This document shows, one piece after another, positions 12,116-21,659 of a DNA stretch of 64,000 nucleotides. The notes beneath the pieces are model-generated. The model did not search any database. It was given only the letters and a program-made list of their open reading frames with translations, and had not been told where the DNA came from. This stretch comes from Bacteroidales bacterium. GTDB lineage: Bacteria > Bacteroidota > Bacteroidia > Bacteroidales > UBA932. The stretch covers positions 26,034 to 90,033 of the forward strand of contig JAFTDJ010000021.1 in assembly GCA_017454265.1 (NCBI GenBank). Reading direction: 5' to 3'. Each line of letters opens with the position of its first letter. Position 1 is the stretch's first letter. Both the position numbers and the translations under genes were made by a program.

Positions 12116-12143
12116 TTTGTTCCGCGTATTCTTTATACCTTTG
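12116..12143 (+). promoter_or_regulatory. Predicted pyrimidine operon promoter (-33 and -7 boxes)
   Basis: A TTTG at 12116-12119 is followed after 16 nt by TACCTTTG at 12136-12143, close to the Bacteroidota consensus though with a somewhat short spacer. The predicted +1 is about 12150. That leaves a leader of about 100 nt before pyrC, containing a short open frame and a terminator-like hairpin. Confidence 0.55.
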
Positions 12144-12148
12144 CACAA

Positions 12149-12193
12149 ATGCGCAAAGAAATGACCGACTTCATTTGCATACTATTTATATGA
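12149..12193 (+). CDS. Possible 14-codon leader peptide of the pyr operon
   Basis: ATG at 12149 opens a 14-codon frame, MRKEMTDFICILFI, ending in TGA at 12191-12193. The start is within a base of the predicted transcription start. The end is about 11 nt before the 5' arm of a terminator-like hairpin. Its second half is encoded by a U-rich stretch. The arrangement recalls the E. coli pyrBI leader, where translation coupled to UTP-dependent pausing controls termination. There is no independent evidence that it is translated. Confidence 0.3.
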   Translation: MRKEMTDFICILFI

Positions 12194-12204
12194 ATAATAA
12201 CCAA

Positions 12205-12233
12205 GGGCAGCCGTTATAGCTGTCCTTTTTTTT
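12205..12233 (+). terminator. Terminator-like hairpin in the pyr operon leader (putative attenuator)
   Basis: Arms GGGCAGC (12205-12211) and GCTGTCC (12219-12225) form a 7-bp stem with one G-U pair and a 7-nt loop, followed directly by eight T residues (12226-12233). It lies between the predicted promoter and the pyrC start at 12250, so it should abort transcription unless read through. A weaker AT-rich hairpin (12159-12164 with 12171-12176) precedes it. Confidence 0.6.
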
Positions 12234-12249
12234 GGTTAGTTGGAGTGAT

Positions 12250-13356
12250 ATGGTAACATTACCCGCCTTTGTCGACCTGCATGTTCATCTGCGGGAACCC
12301 GGGCAGACCTGGAAGGAAACAATTCGCAGCGGAAGCCTTGCTGCAGCACGCGGAGGATACACTACCGTCTGCGCAATGCCCAATCTCGATCCAGTCCCCG
12401 ACTCTCCCGGGAATCTCGCCCTGGAGCAGGAGATCATCGACCGTGACGCCATAATCAACGTACTGCCATATTGTTCCATAACCAAAGGCCGCAAAGGGCT
12501 GGAGCTGGTTGACTTCGAAGCCCTGAAAGACAAATGCGTCGCCTTCTCCGACGACGGTAGCGGCGTTCAGGGGCAGGATATAATGCTGGCAGCAATGGAG
12601 GCCGCTGCAGCCGCCGATGTCATCATAGCGGCACACTGCGAAGACAACAGCCTGCTGCACGGCGGCTATATTCACGCCGGGCGCTGGTGTGCCGCACACG
12701 GGCACCGTGGGATCTGCTCCGAGAGTGAATGGATACAGATAGAAAGGGATCTTGAGCTTTGCGCTAAGACAGGTTGCCGTTACCACGTATGCCATATTTC
12801 CACGACCCGAAGCGTGCAGCTGATTCGCGAAGCCAAGGCGAGCGGAGTAAGGGTTACCTGCGAAACCGCCCCGCACTACCTGCTGCTTTGCGAAGACGAC
12901 CTGCAGGAAGACGGGCGTTTCAAGATGAATCCTCCACTTCGCACAGCCGAAGACAGAGATGCGCTGGTGGAAGGACTTAAAGACGGAACCATAGACGTTG
13001 TGGCAACAGACCACGCGCCCCATTCTGCAGAGGAAAAATCCCGCGGTCTCGCGGGCAGCGCCTTCGGTATCGTGGGACTCGAGACAGCCTTCCCCGTTCT
13101 ATATACCGGGCTCGTACGAAGCGGAAAGTTGAGCCTGGACCGGCTCGTAGAGGTCCTTTCCATTGCTCCCAGACGCATATTCCGACTCTCCGGGGCACCA
13201 CAGGACAACGTAGATTTAGATTTGGACACGCCTTTTACCATAGACAGCAGGAACTTTCTCTCTATGGGCAAATCCACGCCCTTTGACGGTTTGACCGTTT
13301 ACGGCCGTGTCCTTGAAACCAGATACAATAACAAAACAGTTTATAAAGCAATATGA
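12250..13356 (+). CDS. pyrC: PyrC, dihydroorotase (class I type, N-terminally trimmed)
   Basis: PyrC cyclises carbamoyl aspartate to dihydroorotate. The start chosen is the ATG at 12250 with GGAG 5 bases upstream; a TTG at 12232 falls in the terminator U-tract. Metal-site motifs are DLHVHLREPG, the class I Asp in FSDDGSGVQG, AHCED, CHISTT and TDHAPH. At 368 aa it lacks most of the roughly 50-60-residue N-terminal beta-sandwich of class I enzymes, starting only about 10 residues before HVH. It is the first gene of the pyr operon and overlaps carA by 4 bp. Confidence 0.93.
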   Translation: MVTLPAFVDLHVHLREPGQTWKETIRSGSLAAARGGYTTVCAMPNLDPVPDSPGNLALEQEIIDRDAIINVLPYCSITKGRKGLELVDFEALKDKCVAFSDDGSGVQGQDIMLAAMEAAAAADVIIAAHCEDNSLLHGGYIHAGRWCAAHGHRGICSESEWIQIERDLELCAKTGCRYHVCHISTTRSVQLIREAKASGVRVTCETAPHYLLLCEDDLQEDGRFKMNPPLRTAEDRDALVEGLKDGTIDVVATDHAPHSAEEKSRGLAGSAFGIVGLETAFPVLYTGLVRSGKLSLDRLVEVLSIAPRRIFRLSGAPQDNVDLDLDTPFTIDSRNFLSMGKSTPFDGLTVYGRVLETRYNNKTVYKAI

Positions 13357-14444
13357 TTCGACCAAAGAAAAAACTGGTGCTTGAGAACGGGACCGAATTT
13401 TACGGGACCCTCTTCGGCGCGGACTGCAACCGCGTGAGCGAAATTGTTTTCAACACATCAGTCGTGGGTTACCAGGAGATTTTATCAGACCCTTCCTATG
13501 CCGGCCAGATTGTGGTTATGACTTATCCGCTGGCAGGCAATTACGGTATCACGGACGAAGATTTCGAATCCAAGGTCTCGTTCATAGACGGTATTGTGGT
13601 CCGGGAGTGCTGCGATACCCCAAGCAACTTCCGTCTTACCAAAACTCTGGAAGAAGAACTGGAGGAGCACGGCATTCCATGCGTCAGCGATGTCGACACC
13701 CGAATGCTCACGAAGCAGATACGCAGCCTGGGGCGTCCCCGGGCAGCAATCGTAGATGCCGACATGACCGTAGAAGACGCCTTGGAGCTCATTCGCAACA
13801 CCCCCGAAGGCAGCAGGGCCGTAAAGCAGGTCAGCTGCCGCAAGCGCTGGCTTACCCGCACCCAGGGCCACCGCTTCCACGTGGTAGCAGTAGATTGCGG
13901 CATCAAGCATTCCATCCTGCGGCTGCTCGGCGCCAAAGGGTGCAATGTCACGATAGTTCCATTCGACACCCCGGCTTCCGATATCCTTGCGTACAATCCT
14001 GACGGGATACTTTTGTCAAACGGCCCAGACAACGTTCCGGAAGTGCCTGAGGTGAACAAGCTCTTCAGCGAACTGAAAGGGCGGCTCCCCGTATGCGGGA
14101 TTGGCCTCGGAGCCGAAATTATCGCCTGCAGTTACGGTGCCCGGCCCGAATGGATGGGCTGCGGCATTCACGGAGACCACCCGGTGCGCGACCTGGGGAG
14201 CGGACGTATCGGCACTGCTGTACTGAACCAAAGCTTCTTTTTCAGGAATGTGGAAGGCACATCTCTCACTCCCACCCATGTAACTGTGCCGGAGGGCTTC
14301 ATAGCAGGTTTCGAAAACCTGGAAGACAAGGTCTTCGGAGTACAGTTCCAGCTCGAGGCCGCCCCCGGTCCCAAGGATTTCATTCACTTGATAGACAAAT
14401 TCATTAGCATGATGGAGGAACAGCAAAATGCCAAAGAGAACTGA
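13353..14444 (+). CDS. carA: CarA, carbamoyl-phosphate synthase small subunit with dead glutaminase
   Basis: CarA normally hydrolyses glutamine and channels ammonia to CarB. The 363-aa protein aligns throughout: N-terminal CPSase_sm domain ([26 protein letters not shown]) and a C-terminal class I glutaminase domain. In the latter the nucleophile elbow GICLGHQ is GIGLGAE, with Gly251 replacing Cys. The NHG motif is NQS, and the catalytic HPE is QLE (Gln333 for His; Glu335 kept). All these sites are changed by in-frame substitutions with no frameshift, so the domain has been kept as a scaffold. This parallels vertebrate CPS I, which uses free ammonia after losing the Cys. It overlaps carB by 17 bp. 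Confidence 0.95.
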
Positions 14445-17400
14445 TATACGCAAAATAATGGTCATAGGCTCCGGCCCTATCGTGATCGGGCAGGCAGCTG
14501 AATTCGATTATGCGGGCACCCAGGCCTGTCTTGCGCTCAAGGAAGAAGGATACCAGGTTATTCTTGTAAACTCCAACCCGGCCACCATCATGACTGACAC
14601 CCATATTGCCGACAAGGTGTATATGGAGCCGCTTAAACTGGAGTATCTGGCCAAAATCATCCGTTACGAGCGCCCTGACGCCATAGTCCCGGGACTGGGA
14701 GGGCAAACCGGCCTCAACCTGGCCGTCCAGCTCGCCCGGAAGGGCGTACTTGAAGAATGCGGAGTGGAGATACTCGGCACGTCCTTCGAGGGCATCGAGA
14801 TGGCTGAAGACCGTGAGAAGTTCAAGGAATTATGCCTGAGAATAGGAGAGCCCGTGATTCCGTCCGAAATTTGCTACAGCATAGAGGAAGGAGTCCGCGT
14901 AGCGGCAGAAATCGGCTACCCCGTGATTCTCAGGCCCGCCTTCACCCTTGGTGGAACCGGCGGCGGATTTGCCGACAATGAGGAGGAGTTGCGCGACTTG
15001 ATGCGCGGCGCCCTTTCCCTCTCCCCTGTGCACCAGGTGCTGGTGGAAAAAAGCATCAAGGGTTACAAGGAAATTGAGTTCGAAGTGATGCGCGACGCCG
15101 CCGATACCGCAATCGCAGTGTGCAGCATGGAGAACATCGACCCCGTAGGAGTACACACAGGTGATTCCATGGTAGTCGCACCCGCCCAAACCCTTACCGA
15201 CAAGGAATACCAGATTCTGAGGGACAGCGCGTTGAAGCTCATACGCGCCCTGGGAATCGAAGGAGGGTGCAACATACAGTTTGCCCTGGACCCCCTTTCT
15301 TTCAGATATTACCTCATCGAGGTAAACCCCAGGGTATCCCGTTCTTCCGCCCTCGCCTCAAAGGCCAGCGGCTTTCCCATAGCCCGGGTCACCGCAAAAG
15401 TCGCTGTAGGCTTGCACCTGGACGAGATAATGATTGCAGGAGCTCCTGCCTGCTGTGAGCCTGCAATCGATTATGTCGTAACCAAAGTAGCCCGCTTTCC
15501 CTTCGACAAATTCACTGAGGCCTCAAATGAGCTCGGCACCCAGATGAAGGCCACAGGAGAGGTGATGAGCATAGGCCGCACACTGGAAGAAAGCATCCTG
15601 AAGGCCATTCGTTCTCTGGAGAACGGCTGCTGCCACATCCATAAAAAGAAATTCGATGACTGGACCCTGGAACAGCTCCTGGACTATATTTCCCGTCCCA
15701 CAGACGACCGCATCTACGCCATAGCCCAGCTGCTCAGGCTCCGAATCGACCTGGCCCGCATCTACGACCGCACCAAGATAGACATGCTCTTCCTCGAGAA
15801 GATTTACAATATTGTACGTATGGAGCGGGAGCTGCAGGCGGCGAGCGAACTTGATCCCGAATTGCTGCTCAAGGCCAAGCGGATGGGCTTCGGAGACAAG
15901 TTCCTGGGCCAGCTTCGCGGCAAGACCGAGGAGGAAATGATACGCCTGCGGGAAAGCCTGGACATACGTCCAGTTTACAAAATGATAGATTCGTGCGCCG
16001 GCGAAAGGGAAACATATGTCCCCTATTTCTACTCCACCTACGAAGGTGAAAACGAGTCTGCCCGCAGCGCCCGCAAGAAAATCCTGGTCCTGGGCTCCGG
16101 CCCCATCAGGATTGGCCAGGGAGTGGAATTCGACTACTCCACGGTACACGCCATTCTGGCTATCCGTGAAGCCGGATACGAAGCCATAATCATCAACAAC
16201 AACCCTGAAACCGTATCCACGGACTACACCATTTCCGACAAGCTCTACTTCGAGCCCCTGACTCCCGAAGACGTTATGAATGTAGTACGTCTGGAGCAGC
16301 CGGACGGAGTAATCGTAACCCTCGGAGGCCAGACTGCAATCAATCTTGCAGCGCCTCTTTCCAACTTCGGAGTGCCGCTCATAGGCACCGACCTGCAGGC
16401 CATAGACAATGCCGAGGACCGCAAGCTCTTCGAAGCAATACTGAGACGCATAGGTATAGCCCAGCCCAAGGCAAAGGCGGTTACCAACGTCGAGGACGGA
16501 GTGGCGGCTGCCGCAGAGATCGGCTATCCGGTACTGGTACGCCCGAGTTTCGTATTGGGAGGCCGCGCCATGATGATAGTCGGCAACGAGGAGATGCTCC
16601 GCCACTACCTTCACAACGCAGTGGAAATCAACGAAGATTCCCCTGTGCTGGTGGACCGTTACATCATGGGGCGCGAAACTGAAGTCGATGCCATCTGCGA
16701 CGGGACGGACGTCTTCATCCCGGCTATAATGGAACACGTTGAGCGCACCGGAATACATTCCGGCGACAGTATCAGCGTCTATCCTTCCTTCAGCCTCAGC
16801 GATAAGGTAAAGCAGCAGATTATAGATAATACGGTTCAGCTCGGCCTTGCAATAGGTATCAAGGGACTGTTCAACATTCAGTTCATAGTGGACGAACACG
16901 ACGACGTTTACGTAATCGAGGTGAATCCCCGGTCTTCCCGTACGGTCCCGTTCATCTCCAAATCTACCGGCATACCGATTGCGCAGATTGCGACACGGGT
17001 GATGCTGGGGCATTCACTGAAGGAACAGGGCATCAGCGAGGTGTACTTCCCCGAGCGCAAACGCCACTTCGTAAAGACACCGGCTTTCTCCTTCGGCAAG
17101 ATCAAGGGCATAGACTCTTACCTGTCACCCGAAATGAAGTCTACCGGAGAGGCCATAGGCTACGACAAGACTCTTACCCGCGCCTTGTACAAGTCGCTGC
17201 AGGCTTCCGGCATGGACGTGCGGCCTTACGGCACTGTACTGGTGACCATAGCAGACAAGGACAAGGAGGAAGCCCTTCCCCTGATTCGCCGCTTCTACAA
17301 CCTTGGATTCAACCTGGAGGCCACCAGCGGCACAGCGCGTTTCCTCAAGGAGCACGGGCTGCGCACCAGAACCTTGCGCAAGATTAACGAAGGCAGCGAT

Positions 17401-17619
17401 GACATAGCCAACTCCATCCGCAAGGGTCACGTAAGCTACGTAATCAACACCATAGACCTCAACCAGAAGTCATCCCACCTGGACGGCTACGACATCAGGC
17501 GCTTCGCGGTAGAAAACAACGTAACCACTTTTACAGCCCTGGAAACCGTTCGGGTTTTGCTCGATGTCCTGGAAGAAATCAGCTTCACAGTATCCACGAT
17601 AGATGCCGAATATAAGTAA
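14428..17619 (+). CDS. carB: CarB, carbamoyl-phosphate synthase large subunit
   Basis: CarB makes carbamoyl phosphate from bicarbonate, ammonia and two ATP, feeding pyrimidines and arginine. The full-length 1063-aa chain has two homologous ATP-grasp halves ([37 protein letters not shown]), a central oligomerisation segment (about 400-550) and a C-terminal MGS-like domain (about 935-1063), which binds UMP/IMP-type effectors in E. coli. Motifs such as [16 protein letters not shown] and [12 protein letters not shown] are intact. With CarA catalytically dead, CarB is predicted to be supplied by free NH3. It overlaps pyrK by 17 bp. Confidence 0.97.
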
Positions 17620-18340
17620 AATATCATTGGAAATCCGGTCCAACGAGCCGCTGAACAGGAATTGTTTCCGCCTGGAAATGTGCGGAGATGGCATTCCCGC
17701 CTTTTCTCCGGGCCAATTTGTTCAGTTGGGAATTCCCGGGAAGTTCCTCAAGAGACCCATTTCGGTCTGCGACGCTGACGGCGAACATATAGTATTGATA
17801 TACAAAGCTGTAGGAGAAGGCACAGAGATTCTCTCAGGCCTCTCCGGAGGCAGCCGCCTGGAACTTCTCGCACCTCTCGGACGCGGTTTTTCTGCAGAAG
17901 CATGCAAACGGAGCGCCCTTCTGACAGGAGGCGGTCTTGGCAGCGCTCCCCTGCTTTTTCTGTGCAAAACCCTGCTTGGCGCCGGGAAAAAAGTCAACGC
18001 TGTGCTTTGCTTCAACACGGCGGCCGACGTGGTGCTTGCGGATGAGTACAAGAAGCTTGATGTGGAGCCGCAAATAGTAACGTTGGACGGTTCAATGGGG
18101 ATTAAAGGATACGCCACCGATGCAGTCTTTCCAGGGCACGACTTCTTCTACACCTGCGGTCCGCTTCCTATGATGCGCGCCGTCTGCAATACTTTGCCGG
18201 GGCCCGGACAAGCCAGCATGGAGGAAAGGATGGGATGCGGCGCTGGCTACTGCTACGGATGTACAATCAAGACTGCTGACGGCCCTGCGCGGGTATGTGC
18301 GGACGGCCCGGTTTTCGACAAGGACAAACTGTTATGGTAA
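17603..18340 (+). CDS. pyrK: PyrK, dihydroorotate dehydrogenase electron-transfer subunit
   Basis: PyrK is an FAD and [2Fe-2S] protein that passes electrons from dihydroorotate oxidation (PyrD) to NAD+. It is 245 aa. The FAD-binding RPISV and GTEIL segments, a GGGLGSAPL nucleotide-binding motif and the C-terminal cysteine cluster ([10 protein letters not shown] ... [10 protein letters not shown]) are all present. The start ATG at 17603 lies inside the carB end, and the gene overlaps pyrD by 7 bp. The pair defines a class 1B enzyme. Confidence 0.95.
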
Positions 18341-19245
18341 GAAAGCTTTCTACAGAATTCTGCGGTCTCAGCTTCACGAACCCGGTAGTTCCTGCAAGCG
18401 GCACATTCGGATTCGGCCTGGAGCTGGCAGACAGCATGGACCTGAACGTTCTCGGTGGCATATCGCTTAAAGGCACCACCTTGGAGGCGCGTTTCGGCAA
18501 TCCCACGCCGCGTATTGCCGAGTGCAACGGCGGACTGCTCAACTCGGTTGGCCTGCAGAATCCCGGAATCCGCGAACTGGTAAATGCCAAGGTGCCGGCC
18601 CTGAGGCGCATATTCAGCGGCCGCATCATTGCCAACATCAGCGGTTTCTCCGCCGAAGAATACAAGGAGTGCTGCCGTATTGCAGACAGCTGCGGGGGCA
18701 TCGACATCATCGAGCTCAACATTTCCTGCCCTAACGTGCATGGCGGCGGAATGGCGTTCGGCACCGACCCCGGCGCTGCAGCTGAAGTGACCGAGGCGGT
18801 ACGCTCCGTATGCAGCAAGCCCCTGGTAGTGAAGCTCAGTCCCAACGTTACCGATATAGTTTCCGTCGCACGTGCCTGCGAAGATGCCGGAGCGGACGGC
18901 CTGTGCCTGATCAACACCATACTTGGGATGCGCATAGACATCAAGACCCGCCGCCCGGTACTCGCCAACAGGACAGGAGGGCTGTCCGGCCCTGCAGTAT
19001 TTCCGGTAGCGTTGAGGATGGTCTACGATGTTGCGCATGCCTGCAGCATTCCGGTAATGGGATGTGGAGGCGTGAGCGGCGCGCAGGACGTGGTGGAAAT
19101 GATGATGGCCGGAGCCAGAGTAGTGCAGGTCGGTTCGGAAAACCTGCGTAACCCGTTTGCCTGCAAGGAAATCGTAGAAGATTTGCCCGTCGTAATGGAA
19201 AAACTTGGAATAGAAAAACTTAGTGATATAATTGGATGCGCATGA
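18334..19245 (+). CDS. pyrD: PyrD, dihydroorotate dehydrogenase (class 1B catalytic subunit)
   Basis: PyrD oxidises dihydroorotate to orotate with FMN. The start ATG at 18334 overlaps the pyrK end and gives [14 protein letters not shown], 303 aa. The class 1 catalytic Cys is in NISCPNVHGGG; FMN-site segments are ASGTFGFG, SVGLQNPG and GCGGVSGAQD. It depends on PyrK for NAD+ reduction. It ends in an ATGA overlap with pyrF. Confidence 0.96.
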   Translation: MVRKLSTEFCGLSFTNPVVPASGTFGFGLELADSMDLNVLGGISLKGTTLEARFGNPTPRIAECNGGLLNSVGLQNPGIRELVNAKVPALRRIFSGRIIANISGFSAEEYKECCRIADSCGGIDIIELNISCPNVHGGGMAFGTDPGAAAEVTEAVRSVCSKPLVVKLSPNVTDIVSVARACEDAGADGLCLINTILGMRIDIKTRRPVLANRTGGLSGPAVFPVALRMVYDVAHACSIPVMGCGGVSGAQDVVEMMMAGARVVQVGSENLRNPFACKEIVEDLPVVMEKLGIEKLSDIIGCA

Positions 19246-19940
19246 AAAGAGACGTCATTATAGCCTGCGACTTCAGCGGGGCCGGAGAGGTGTATGATTT
19301 TCTGGACCTCTTCAAGGGCGGCCGCAAGCCCTTCGTAAAGATAGGTATGGAGCTGTTCTACGCAGAAGGCCCCTCCATCGTGCGCAGCATCAAGGAAAGG
19401 GGGCACAATGTTTTCCTCGACCTCAAGCTTCACGACATTCCCAACACCGTAAAAAAATCCATGCGGGTACTGTCCGGGCTTGATGTGGACATGGTGAATC
19501 TGCACGCCGCCGGCGGCAGCGCCATGATGCGGGCGGCTCTTGACGGCCTCACCAGGCCCGACGGCAGCCGTCCTCTGCTCATAGCCGTTACGCAGCTTAC
19601 GTCCACAAGCGCCGAAATGCTGAGGGATGAACTTCTCATCGGCTCTTCCATGGAAGAAACCATCTCCAGCTATGCAGTGAACGCGCGGAATGCAGGTCTG
19701 GACGGAGTGGTGTGTTCCCCGCGCGAAGCTGCGGCAGTGAAGGCTGCATGCGGCCCTGGCTTCGTTACAGTGACCCCTGGGATCCGCTTCGAAGGAGCTT
19801 CGACAGACGACCAGGTGCGCATCACCACTCCTGCCGGGGCAAGGGAACTCGGATCTGACTTCATAGTCGTCGGACGGCCTGTCACCGCCGCTCCCGACCC
19901 CGTTGCAGCATACAACAGGTGCTTGAATGACTTTATTTAG
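19242..19940 (+). CDS. pyrF: PyrF, orotidine 5'-phosphate decarboxylase
   Basis: PyrF decarboxylates OMP to UMP. The start chosen is the ATG at 19242, which forms an ATGA overlap with the pyrD stop; another ATG two codons upstream is possible. The 232-aa TIM barrel has the substrate Asp in ACDFSG and the signature [10 protein letters not shown] carrying the catalytic Lys/Asp pair. The C-terminal phosphate-binding part includes TPGIRF and [12 protein letters not shown]. It is followed after 37 bp by pyrE. Confidence 0.95.
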
Positions 19941-19977
19941 ATGTTCCGTTTTTACCCGACATGACAGTTATACAGTT

Positions 19978-20586
19978 ATGGAAAAAGAAATAGCCAAAGC
20001 TTTACTGAGCATCGGTGCCGTGTTCCTGCGGCCCGACGACCCGTTTACCTGGGCCAGCGGCATCAAGAGCCCCATATATTGCGACAACCGCCTGACCCTG
20101 TCCGCCCCTGCCGTACGCGAAAAGGTGGAAGCCGGCCTTTCCGCCCTGGTACGGGAACATTTTCCCGGGTGCGAAATGCTGATGGGCACATCCACGGCAG
20201 GCATTGCCCACGCGGCAATAACCGCCACACTTCTGAACTTGCCTATGGGCTACGTACGGAGCGAAGCCAAGAGTCACGGCAGGACGAACCGTATAGAGGG
20301 ACGCATGGAAAAGGGGTGCAAGGTCGTGGTAGTGGAAGACCTTATTTCCACCGGAGGCAGTGCAATCGACGTCGTGAACGCCCTTCGCCAGGAAGGCGCG
20401 GAGGTGCTTGGAATCGTCAGCATCTTCACCTACGGAATACAGCGCGGAATTGAAAGGCTCTCTGCAGCAGGCACCGTGAACTACTCCCTGAGCAACCTCG
20501 ACGCTCTCGTGGACGTTGCAGCCGAGGAAGGTTATATTGCATCAGATCAGAAAAAAAATATCATCGAATTCAGAAACAGTCTATGA
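19978..20586 (+). CDS. pyrE: PyrE, orotate phosphoribosyltransferase
   Basis: PyrE joins orotate to PRPP to give OMP. The start ATG at 19978 gives [17 protein letters not shown], matching family N-termini; the frame continues upstream inside the pyrF end without homology. The 202-aa product carries [16 protein letters not shown] and the PRPP-binding motif [16 protein letters not shown]. It overlaps pyrB by 4 bp (ATGA). Confidence 0.96.
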
Positions 20587-21659
20587 AGCACCTTATCGAC
20601 CCCACAGACCTGAGCAAGGCCGAAACAGACGAGATTATCGCCCTCGCAGAAGACATCATAAGCAACCGCGCCGCATACCGTGAGCGCTGTGCATTCAACA
20701 AACTTGCGACGCTCTTCTACGAGCCCAGCACCCGAACCCGCCTGAGTTTTACCTCCGCGATGATGGAACTGGGCGGAAATGTACTCGGTTTCTCGGACGC
20801 ACGCAATTCATCGGTCAGCAAAGGGGAAACTGTCCAGGACACAGTACGCGTAGTGGGTTGCTTTGCAGACGTGATTGCGATGAGGCATCATATAGAAGGC
20901 GCTCCTCTAGCCGCAGCGCTGGTCTCCCCTGTTCCCATCATCAATGCAGGCGACGGGAGCCACAGCCATCCCACTCAGACCCTGACAGATTTGCTCACTA
21001 TCAAGAGGGAGCTTGGGCGCATAGACGGAATCACAATCGGATTCTGCGGAGACCTCCGTTTCGGGCGCACAGTGCACTCCCTCATAAAGGCCCTGGCGCG
21101 TTACAGGGACATCAAGGTCATACTTATCGCCCCCGATGAACTGAGACTTCCGGACTACATCAAGCAGGACGTCTGCGACCGGTCAGGCATCAGCTACCGG
21201 GAGGTGCACACTATAGAAGAGGTAATATCAGAGCTTGACGTTCTCTATATGACCAGGGTTCAGAAAGAACGTTTCCTGGATGAGGACGAATTCGACAGGG
21301 TGAAAGACAGCTTCGTACTGGACACCGCACGTATGTCCTTGGCTAAAAGGCACATGGCCGTCCTTCACCCGCTCCCTCGCGTAAACGAAATCCTGCCCGA
21401 GGTGGACGCAGATCCCCGCGCCGCTTACTTCCGCCAGGTGGAAAACGGCAAATTTGTCCGCATGGCACTGATAAGCAAACTGCTGGAATGGAAAGACGCC
21501 CCTTCGCACGCATGGAGCCCGGGGCCCGTCGCCGACGTTCCCGGGCGCTGCCCCAACCCCAAGTGCATCTGCAACTGCGAAAACGTAGAAAAACGCATCC
21601 GGCTTTCCGAAGACGGAACCGCCAGATGCGCCTATTGCGATGCCAAGATAGTTTCCTAG
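20583..21659 (+). CDS. pyrB: PyrB fused to the PyrI zinc domain, aspartate carbamoyltransferase
   Basis: The 358-aa protein makes carbamoyl aspartate from carbamoyl phosphate and aspartate. Residues 1 to about 305 are a complete catalytic chain with [12 protein letters not shown], the SKGETVQDT loop and HPTQTLTDL. The last 50 residues form a Cys4 zinc domain with the spacing of the PyrI C-terminus: Cys323-x4-Cys328 and Cys349-x2-Cys352. The nucleotide-binding allosteric domain of PyrI (about 100 residues) is missing and no separate pyrI is in the operon. The zinc domain may hold catalytic trimers together without CTP/ATP control (inference). It is the last gene of the pyr operon and overlaps convergent glpF by 4 bp. 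Confidence 0.93.

Follow-up and report, generated by a model that had tools for sequence, protein, structure and literature searches.

A Pyrimidine-Operon Carbamoyl Phosphate Synthetase of Bacteroidales with a Vestigial Glutaminase Domain, Probably Ammonia-Dependent

Results

The small subunit (CarA) of carbamoyl phosphate synthetase (CPS) encoded in the pyrimidine operon of a Bacteroidales bacterium has lost the triad of its glutaminase domain, while the large subunit, CarB, is complete. CPS needs ammonia at CarB, and the glutaminase is merely its supplier. The best reading of the sequences, which we consider highly probable, is that of a bacterial CPS of the pyrimidine operon that would depend on ammonia and would keep its glutaminase domain as a vestigial scaffold.

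CarA of the Window Lacks the Glutaminase Triad

In the window, the 64,000-nucleotide stretch of a contig analyzed here, carA occupies 13353..14444 of the forward strand as a single uninterrupted frame of 363 codons, and was identified by its open reading frame and profile matches. Its product scores 318.4 bits against the TIGR01368 model (cut-off 307.35), with homology spanning both Pfam domains: the intact N-terminal CPSase_sm_chain domain (PF00988, residues 8-133, 13374..13751) and a vestigial class I glutamine amidotransferase domain (PF00117, residues 179-351, 13887..14405). In the alignment, Gly251 (GGC, 14103..14105) stands in place of the catalytic Cys269 of E. coli, Asn292-Gln293-Ser294 (14226..14234) replaces the NHG motif of E. 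coli residues 311-313, and Gln333-Leu334-Glu335 (14349..14357; the Gln333 codon is CAG, 14349-14351) replaces the HPE motif with His353 and Glu355. Thus, where a glutamine-hydrolysing CarA has Cys-His-Glu, the window CarA has Gly251, Gln333, and Glu335, with the Glu alone kept, and its nearest relatives (88-90% identical) carry the same residues at these sites. The original prediction had given this frame and length, an intact N-terminal domain, the motifs GIGLGAE, NQS, and QLE, and the positions of the Gly251 and Gln333 codons, all of which were reproduced by translation, alignment, and the PF00988 match.

The prediction had also set aside a nearby Cys as a substitute nucleophile, placing it two residues before the elbow position. 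The Cys is residue 248, three residues before Gly251, but the judgment stands: this position is variable, and all six other CarA with a Cys there (e.g., L012 and L018) have the real nucleophile too, which makes Cys248 an unlikely substitute. In the stretch 292-295, which corresponds to the region of E. coli CarA Gly293, the window CarA is one residue shorter and carries an Asp, with an ambiguous gap placement. In human CPS1, the ancestral ammonia tunnel is blocked at Gln318, the equivalent of that Gly293 (PMC4655335, in excerpt).

CarB and the Pyrimidine Operon

As the original prediction held, carB (14428..17619, forward strand) is complete: the frame is full-length, the product scores 1453.8 bits against TIGR01369, and the checked catalytic and ammonia-gate residues are kept. 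Across the 92 CarB sharing 65% identity or more with that of the window, 30 of the 42 positions compared with E. coli are identical in all, catalytic ones included. The roles of these E. coli residues are general knowledge, those of the gate excepted. Gate residues C232 and A314 are present in 92/92 and A251 in 89/92 of these proteins; their CPS1 counterparts are given in the excerpted text of PMC4655335.

The carA and carB genes are separate and overlapping, not the single fused chain of CPS I, and belong to the operon pyrC-carA-carB-pyrK-pyrD-pyrF-pyrE-pyrB, divergent from purC-purE-purL. Their place between pyrC and pyrK is that of the Bacillus type. All genes of the operon lie on the forward strand. 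The frame of pyrC (dihydroorotase, N-terminally short) was called at 12232..13356 from a TTG inside a T-run, and the ATG at 12250 is a likelier start. Profile matches identified pyrK (17603..18340), encoding the electron-transfer subunit of dihydroorotate dehydrogenase, and pyrD (18295..19245, start approximate), encoding the dehydrogenase itself. The frames at 19236..19940 and 19927..20586 are presumably pyrF and pyrE, as judged by translation and place in the operon. For pyrB (20583..21488, aspartate carbamoyltransferase), the coordinates are those of the region matched by B. velezensis PyrB in tblastn. The arrangement is conserved: in the gene order tabulated for 117 operon-type loci, carB was present in 117/117 and pyrC in 114/117, with contig ends accounting for some of the absences, and pyrB was reached at 70 of the 117, always directly after pyrE.

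Upstream of pyrC (12136-12233), a TACCTTTG box, which we take to be a Bacteroidales-type promoter element, is followed by a short frame (MRKEMTDFICILFI) and by a hairpin with a T-run (GGGCAG...CTGTCC, T8). As judged by eye, similar hairpins and T stretches precede pyrC in L077, L079, L109, and L112, and the hairpin with its T-run is possibly an attenuator of the pyr operon. A match of the leader to Rfam L20_leader (17.6 bits versus a gathering threshold of 58.7) was taken as chance. The window PyrC itself is missing about 48 N-terminal residues of the profile and starts just ahead of the DxHxH metal motif; among 27 loci read, a short N-terminus was also seen in L077, L078, L079, L092, and L098, while most others are longer and L083 could not be judged.

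Recurrent Loss of the Triad among Operon-Type CarA

Mapping of the triad across related Bacteroidales CarA, the check that the original prediction had proposed, revealed a clade-wide loss. Operon-type CarA, defined by at least 50% identity, were found in 66 of 400 genomes drawn from the genus of the window. They were pooled with loci of a named collection, of which the best 80 of 433 relatives by likeness to the query were taken. Where a host is named in the titles of this collection, its MAGs are mostly from ruminants or other herbivores, and their labels are Bacteroidales, Candidatus Cacconaster, Alistipes, Rikenellaceae, Tidjanibacter, Paludibacteraceae, and one "Clostridia". Made non-redundant, the pool gave 116 full-length CarA with open frames of similar length. 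The nucleophilic Cys is missing in 98/116, the triad is not intact in 106/116, and it is kept in full in 10/116, in a set whose collection part is biased toward window-like, i.e., Cys-less, loci. Partial sequences L187, L227, and L228 were left out; the Cys is missing in both of those that cover the elbow.

The loss is graded over the wider clade. At the position of E. coli Cys269, there are 70 Gly, 22 Ser, 18 Cys, 3 Ala, 1 Glu, 1 Asn, and 1 Asp (n = 116), so that six different residues replace the nucleophile. The His353 position is occupied by His (67), Tyr (21), Asn (12), Gln (11), Cys (4), or Ile (1), and the Glu355 position by Glu in 115 sequences and by Asp in one. Among the 98 Cys-less CarA, His353 is kept in 57 and gone in 41, and eight other sequences keep the Cys but have lost the His, in all eight cases to Tyr. 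As both combinations occur, the losses took place in different orders. Members that illustrate the range are L112 and L138 (triad intact), L005 and L206 (Cys present, Tyr for His), L109 (Ser for Cys), and the window (Gly and Gln). Other pocket residues recur as well: Met, Gln, or Ala at 272, Gln at 312, and a deletion near 295.

These residue counts bear on whether a remodelled pocket could still hydrolyze glutamine by means of a different nucleophile, namely Ser in some members or Cys248 in the window. The 22 Ser-bearing sequences, and the closeness of Cys248 to the elbow of the window protein, would fit such chemistry. However, most members (70/116) have Gly at the site, the 41 Cys-less sequences named above have also lost the His, Cys248 is disfavored as described, and human CPS1, which has Ser there, does not use glutamine (PMC4655335, in excerpt). 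We therefore regard an alternative nucleophile as very improbable.

On a tree of 86 rows (83 operon-type sequences, near-identical ones thinned, and 3 outgroups) with the catalytic columns masked, Fitch parsimony required 8 Cys/non-Cys changes. Counting losses only (Dollo), the Cys was lost 12 times, or 9 and 5 times when branches with support below 80 and 95 were collapsed, and the His 12 times, or 11 and 7 times, respectively; the tree is from an IQ-TREE "quick" run, not a careful bootstrap, and an earlier FastTree tree flagged long branches. By these counts, which imply several independent losses of the Cys among operon-type CarA, the loss goes far beyond a single organism or clade, both in its spread and in its recurrence. 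An artifact of sequencing or binning could be suspected, as the data are MAG contigs. Its probability is negligible: the loss is common to 98 different sequences from many assemblies in two collections, and this number of separate assemblies refutes it.

The distribution of the operon type is patchy, since a search of 393 genomes from 206 genera of the order (E <= 1e-60) found it in the window genome and in no other. It is possible that it spread from a Bacillota-like source. One MAG labelled Clostridia (L147, CAMEIT010000025.1) carries an operon-type CarA that has the complete triad and clusters with those of Paludibacteraceae (support 91), and also a second, Bacillus-like intact CarA (L293); its label is a case of either a mislabelled bin or a transfer.

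The Glutaminase Domain Is under Purifying Selection

The dN/dS ratios (Nei-Gojobori) were computed for the six close pairs among the window, L077, L078, and L079. They were 0.026-0.051 for the glutaminase (GATase) domain, values that are rough since dS exceeds 1 in four of the six pairs, 0.039-0.116 for the N-terminal domain of CarA, and 0.035-0.051 for CarB. The low-dS pair L078-L079 (dS 0.27) had a GATase-domain ratio of 0.051. When L080 or L081, which share 77% and 72% identity with the window, was one of the pair, the ratios were 0.10-0.31 for the GATase domain, 0.07-0.22 for the N-terminal domain, and 0.04-0.08 for CarB. CarA thus evolves faster than CarB at this range, yet purifying selection on it, the dead domain included, persists.

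Were the domain merely decaying under relaxed constraint on its way to gene loss, one might expect the graded loss across the clade with many different pocket residues, the ratios of up to 0.31 in the wider pairs, and the CarB genes without an adjoining carA that occur in arginine clusters (see below). Such decay is nevertheless very unlikely, given 116 open full-length frames of similar length, close-pair ratios of 0.03-0.05, Glu355 in 115/116, and many columns that are invariant among 31 aligned members. Taken together with the clade-wide triad loss and the intact CarB sites, these data support the original prediction of a conserved scaffold that would be catalytically dead.

Other CarA and CarB in the Same Genomes

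The original prediction named a second intact carA partnering CarB as a finding that would refute it. The window genome (75.65% complete) yielded one CarA and one CarB, and a second CarA may be present but unassembled; in relatives, by contrast, a second copy is common, in 39 of the 66 operon-type genomes of the genus. Among the 25 of the 66 that are near-complete (completeness of 90% or more, contamination of 5% or less), 22 have it, and G164, G230, and G187 have the Cys-less copy alone. Of the three nearest relatives, it is present in G027 and G356 and was not found in G135 (81% complete). Cys, His, and Glu are intact in 39/39 second copies read, from 38 genomes; the copy of G356 is cut by a contig end.

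The second CarA lies near argG (about 5 kb) in 12 of the 39 genomes and in one frame with CarB (1463-1651 codons) in 11. In G027, it is fused to its own CarB and placed between guaA and pyrG, and the notion that the intact copy is always dedicated to arginine was dropped on that ground. Neither argG nor a second CarA was found in G187 and G369, but argG is present in G164 and G230, from which a second CarA is absent; therefore, the arginine link is a mere tendency, and there is no clean arginine/pyrimidine split. Two of the single CarA-CarB frames, L037:5454-9842 (in the order guaB-guaA-carAB-pyrG) and L038, have 1463 and 1504 codons and an intact triad. In L039, an ArgR-like frame, scoring under its cut-off, lies just ahead of argG.

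The intact copies offer another explanation, in which the pyrimidine CarB would receive ammonia drawn from glutamine by a second CarA or a fused CarAB, and CPS as a whole would still be glutamine-dependent. The 39 of 66 genomes with a second copy, its intact triad in the 38 readable ones, and the 22 of 25 near-complete genomes would fit such cross-supply and count against the ammonia-dependent reading. Against it, a second CarA was not found in G164, G187, G369, G230, and G304, 11 of the 39 genomes have the intact CarA in a fusion with a CarB of its own, and the two kinds of CarB are merely 40-42% identical. Moreover, no other CarA domain was found in 36 of the 40 genomes labelled Alistipes, Rikenellaceae, or Tidjanibacter that carry a Cys-less copy (MAGs of unstated completeness). 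The exceptions are L128, L130, and L132, with an intact second copy, and L137, with two further partial matches; in all, one CarA was counted in 43 of the 48 genomes behind L109-L156. A chance gap across 36 genomes is implausible, and these genomes apparently depend for their CPS on the Cys-less CarA with its CarB partner. We consider cross-supply improbable, if the least so of the alternatives weighed here, and return to an ammonia-dependent enzyme as the preferred reading.

Among the class I domains found in the window genome, only that of CPS shows the loss, and four other amidotransferases keep the nucleophile: PurL (GICNGFQ), GuaA (GICYGAQ, HPE), a GATase beside hisA/hisF (GICVGMQ, HPE; HisH by position), and a fourth domain (AICRGSQ, HPE). 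There has thus been no general abandonment of glutamine.

Among the 31 genomes searched for CarB, G230 and G304 have two CarB and one CarA. Their second CarB is full length with 17/17 checked residues kept, and the 19 kb read around these genes held no trace of CarA. That of G230 lies with argH, argC, and argG- and argD-like genes that score under curated cut-offs. An orphan CarB adjoins argG in G214 and lies about 14 kb from it in G179, other copies being present besides. Dispensing with the glutaminase may thus extend to the loss of CarA itself. The full-length CarB without an adjoining CarA, in or near arginine genes, are at L276:3759-6956, L277:12274-15483, L278:4834-8106, and L279:15282-18485. 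Two argG-like frames (L276:13085-14833 and L278:8671-10425) have about 180 extra N-terminal residues before the argininosuccinate synthase domain, and this extension is possibly a fusion to an arginine repressor, given the ArgR-like frame ahead of argG in L039.

A Second CarA Lineage without the Nucleophile

Outside the operon type, the Cys is present in 80 of the 84 sequences of the first alignment readable at 269. The four exceptions are two partial operon-type sequences and L047 and L048, from G026 and G021 of the window's genus, in which Gly occupies 269 and the His353 position holds Asn or Ala. A targeted search found the L047/L048 clade in 20 of the 400 genus genomes, the 20 loci including the query's own and one identical protein. 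Gly is at 269 in 20/20, His at 312 in 0/20, and His353 is gone in 19/20 (L318 being the keeper); in 18 of the 20 genomes, one CarA-like match was counted. These proteins are 31-35% identical to the window CarA, and the clade is an independent second case of Cys loss in the same genus.

Discussion

In the ammonia-dependent reading, the CarA of the pyrimidine operon would have given up glutamine hydrolysis, and CarB would take free cytosolic ammonia together with bicarbonate and 2 ATP. CarA would be retained as a structural partner because CarB needs it, probably holding CarB in its working shape and shielding or guiding ammonia toward the intact CarB gate. Besides the second intact copies, the His353 kept in 57/98 Cys-less CarA and the GATase ratios of the wider pairs count against this reading. 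Ammonia is plentiful in the herbivore gut and abundant in the rumen, and the pattern suggests that herbivore-gut bacteria may make pyrimidines directly from free ammonia. A broader proposal, namely that ammonia repeatedly took the place of glutamine in Bacteroidales of the herbivore gut, within two CarA lineages unrelated to each other, with the pocket rebuilt as a site of ammonia or ammonium intake or sensing instead of merely decaying, is one we would put forward tentatively and hold as somewhat doubtful.

If true, a bacterial ammonia-type CPS of the pyrimidine operon with several origins would provide natural replicates of the CPS III to CPS I transition, including intermediates with the Cys kept and the His lost and the reverse. 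It would also help to show the reason why a dead amidotransferase domain is kept, and would tie rumen nitrogen ecology to enzyme evolution. The TIGR01368 family model still labels such proteins "glutamine-hydrolyzing", which calls for caution in annotation.

Comparison with Known Systems

The vertebrate liver enzyme is the best-known case of a switch to free ammonia. In human CPS1, Ser294 stands at the site of the Cys in a vestigial class I glutaminase domain beside an intact synthetase part, and the enzyme cannot use glutamine and takes external ammonia, thought to arrive via another path (PMC4655335, in excerpt). In fish and frogs, the use of glutamine was lost through changes of the pocket (PMC7657897, in excerpt). 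According to the portions consulted of one review, bacterial CPS is glutamine-dependent CPS II, ammonia-only use being reserved for CPS I of the urea cycle (PMC6022934). In the literature searched, which covers few subscription journals and in part excerpts, we found no report of a bacterial CarA without the Cys.

Human CPS1 chains were among the matches in a sequence search with the window CarA, which shares the hallmark of CPS I: the glutaminase domain is there and its nucleophile is gone. The parallel with CPS I drawn in the original prediction is thus a sound, sequence-based inference. The site of the Cys differs, with Ser in human CPS1 versus mostly Gly in the operon type, and in the window the His is lost too. 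Vertebrate CPS1 is one fused chain, mitochondrial, activated by N-acetylglutamate, and serves urea synthesis (PMC4655335 and PMC6022934, in excerpt), in contrast to the separate subunits of the window CPS, encoded in a bacterial pyrimidine operon.

The closest solved structures by sequence are those of E. coli CarAB (PDB 1t36, 1c30, and others), with which the domain plan and the conserved CarB residues are shared. Unlike the window protein, E. coli CarAB is glutamine-dependent, with Cys269, His353, and Glu355 (letters checked in the alignment) as the catalytic residues in glutamine use. The s-type CarAB of Bacteroidales (from arginine or nucleotide clusters) catalyze the same reaction with the same domains, often in the same genome; their CarA are about 31-39% identical to that of the window and have the Cys in the copies read, except in the separate clade of 20 loci.

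By profile score and gene order, the window CPS resembles Bacillus PyrAA/PyrAB. The best score of the window CarA is to NF009475, and Bacillus velezensis shares the order pyrC-carA-carB-pyrK-pyrD-pyrF-pyrE, although pyrB is last in the window operon and ahead of pyrC in Bacillus velezensis, and the upstream neighbor is a divergent purC in the window and pyrP and pyrR in Bacillus velezensis. The Bacillus CarA has the full triad. By its sequence and operon, the window protein is thus best classed as a CarA of the Bacillus operon type without the defining catalytic feature of glutamine-hydrolysing CarA, and the operon-type enzyme would work like CPS I while being, by its separate subunits and its pyrimidine operon, no member of CPS I.
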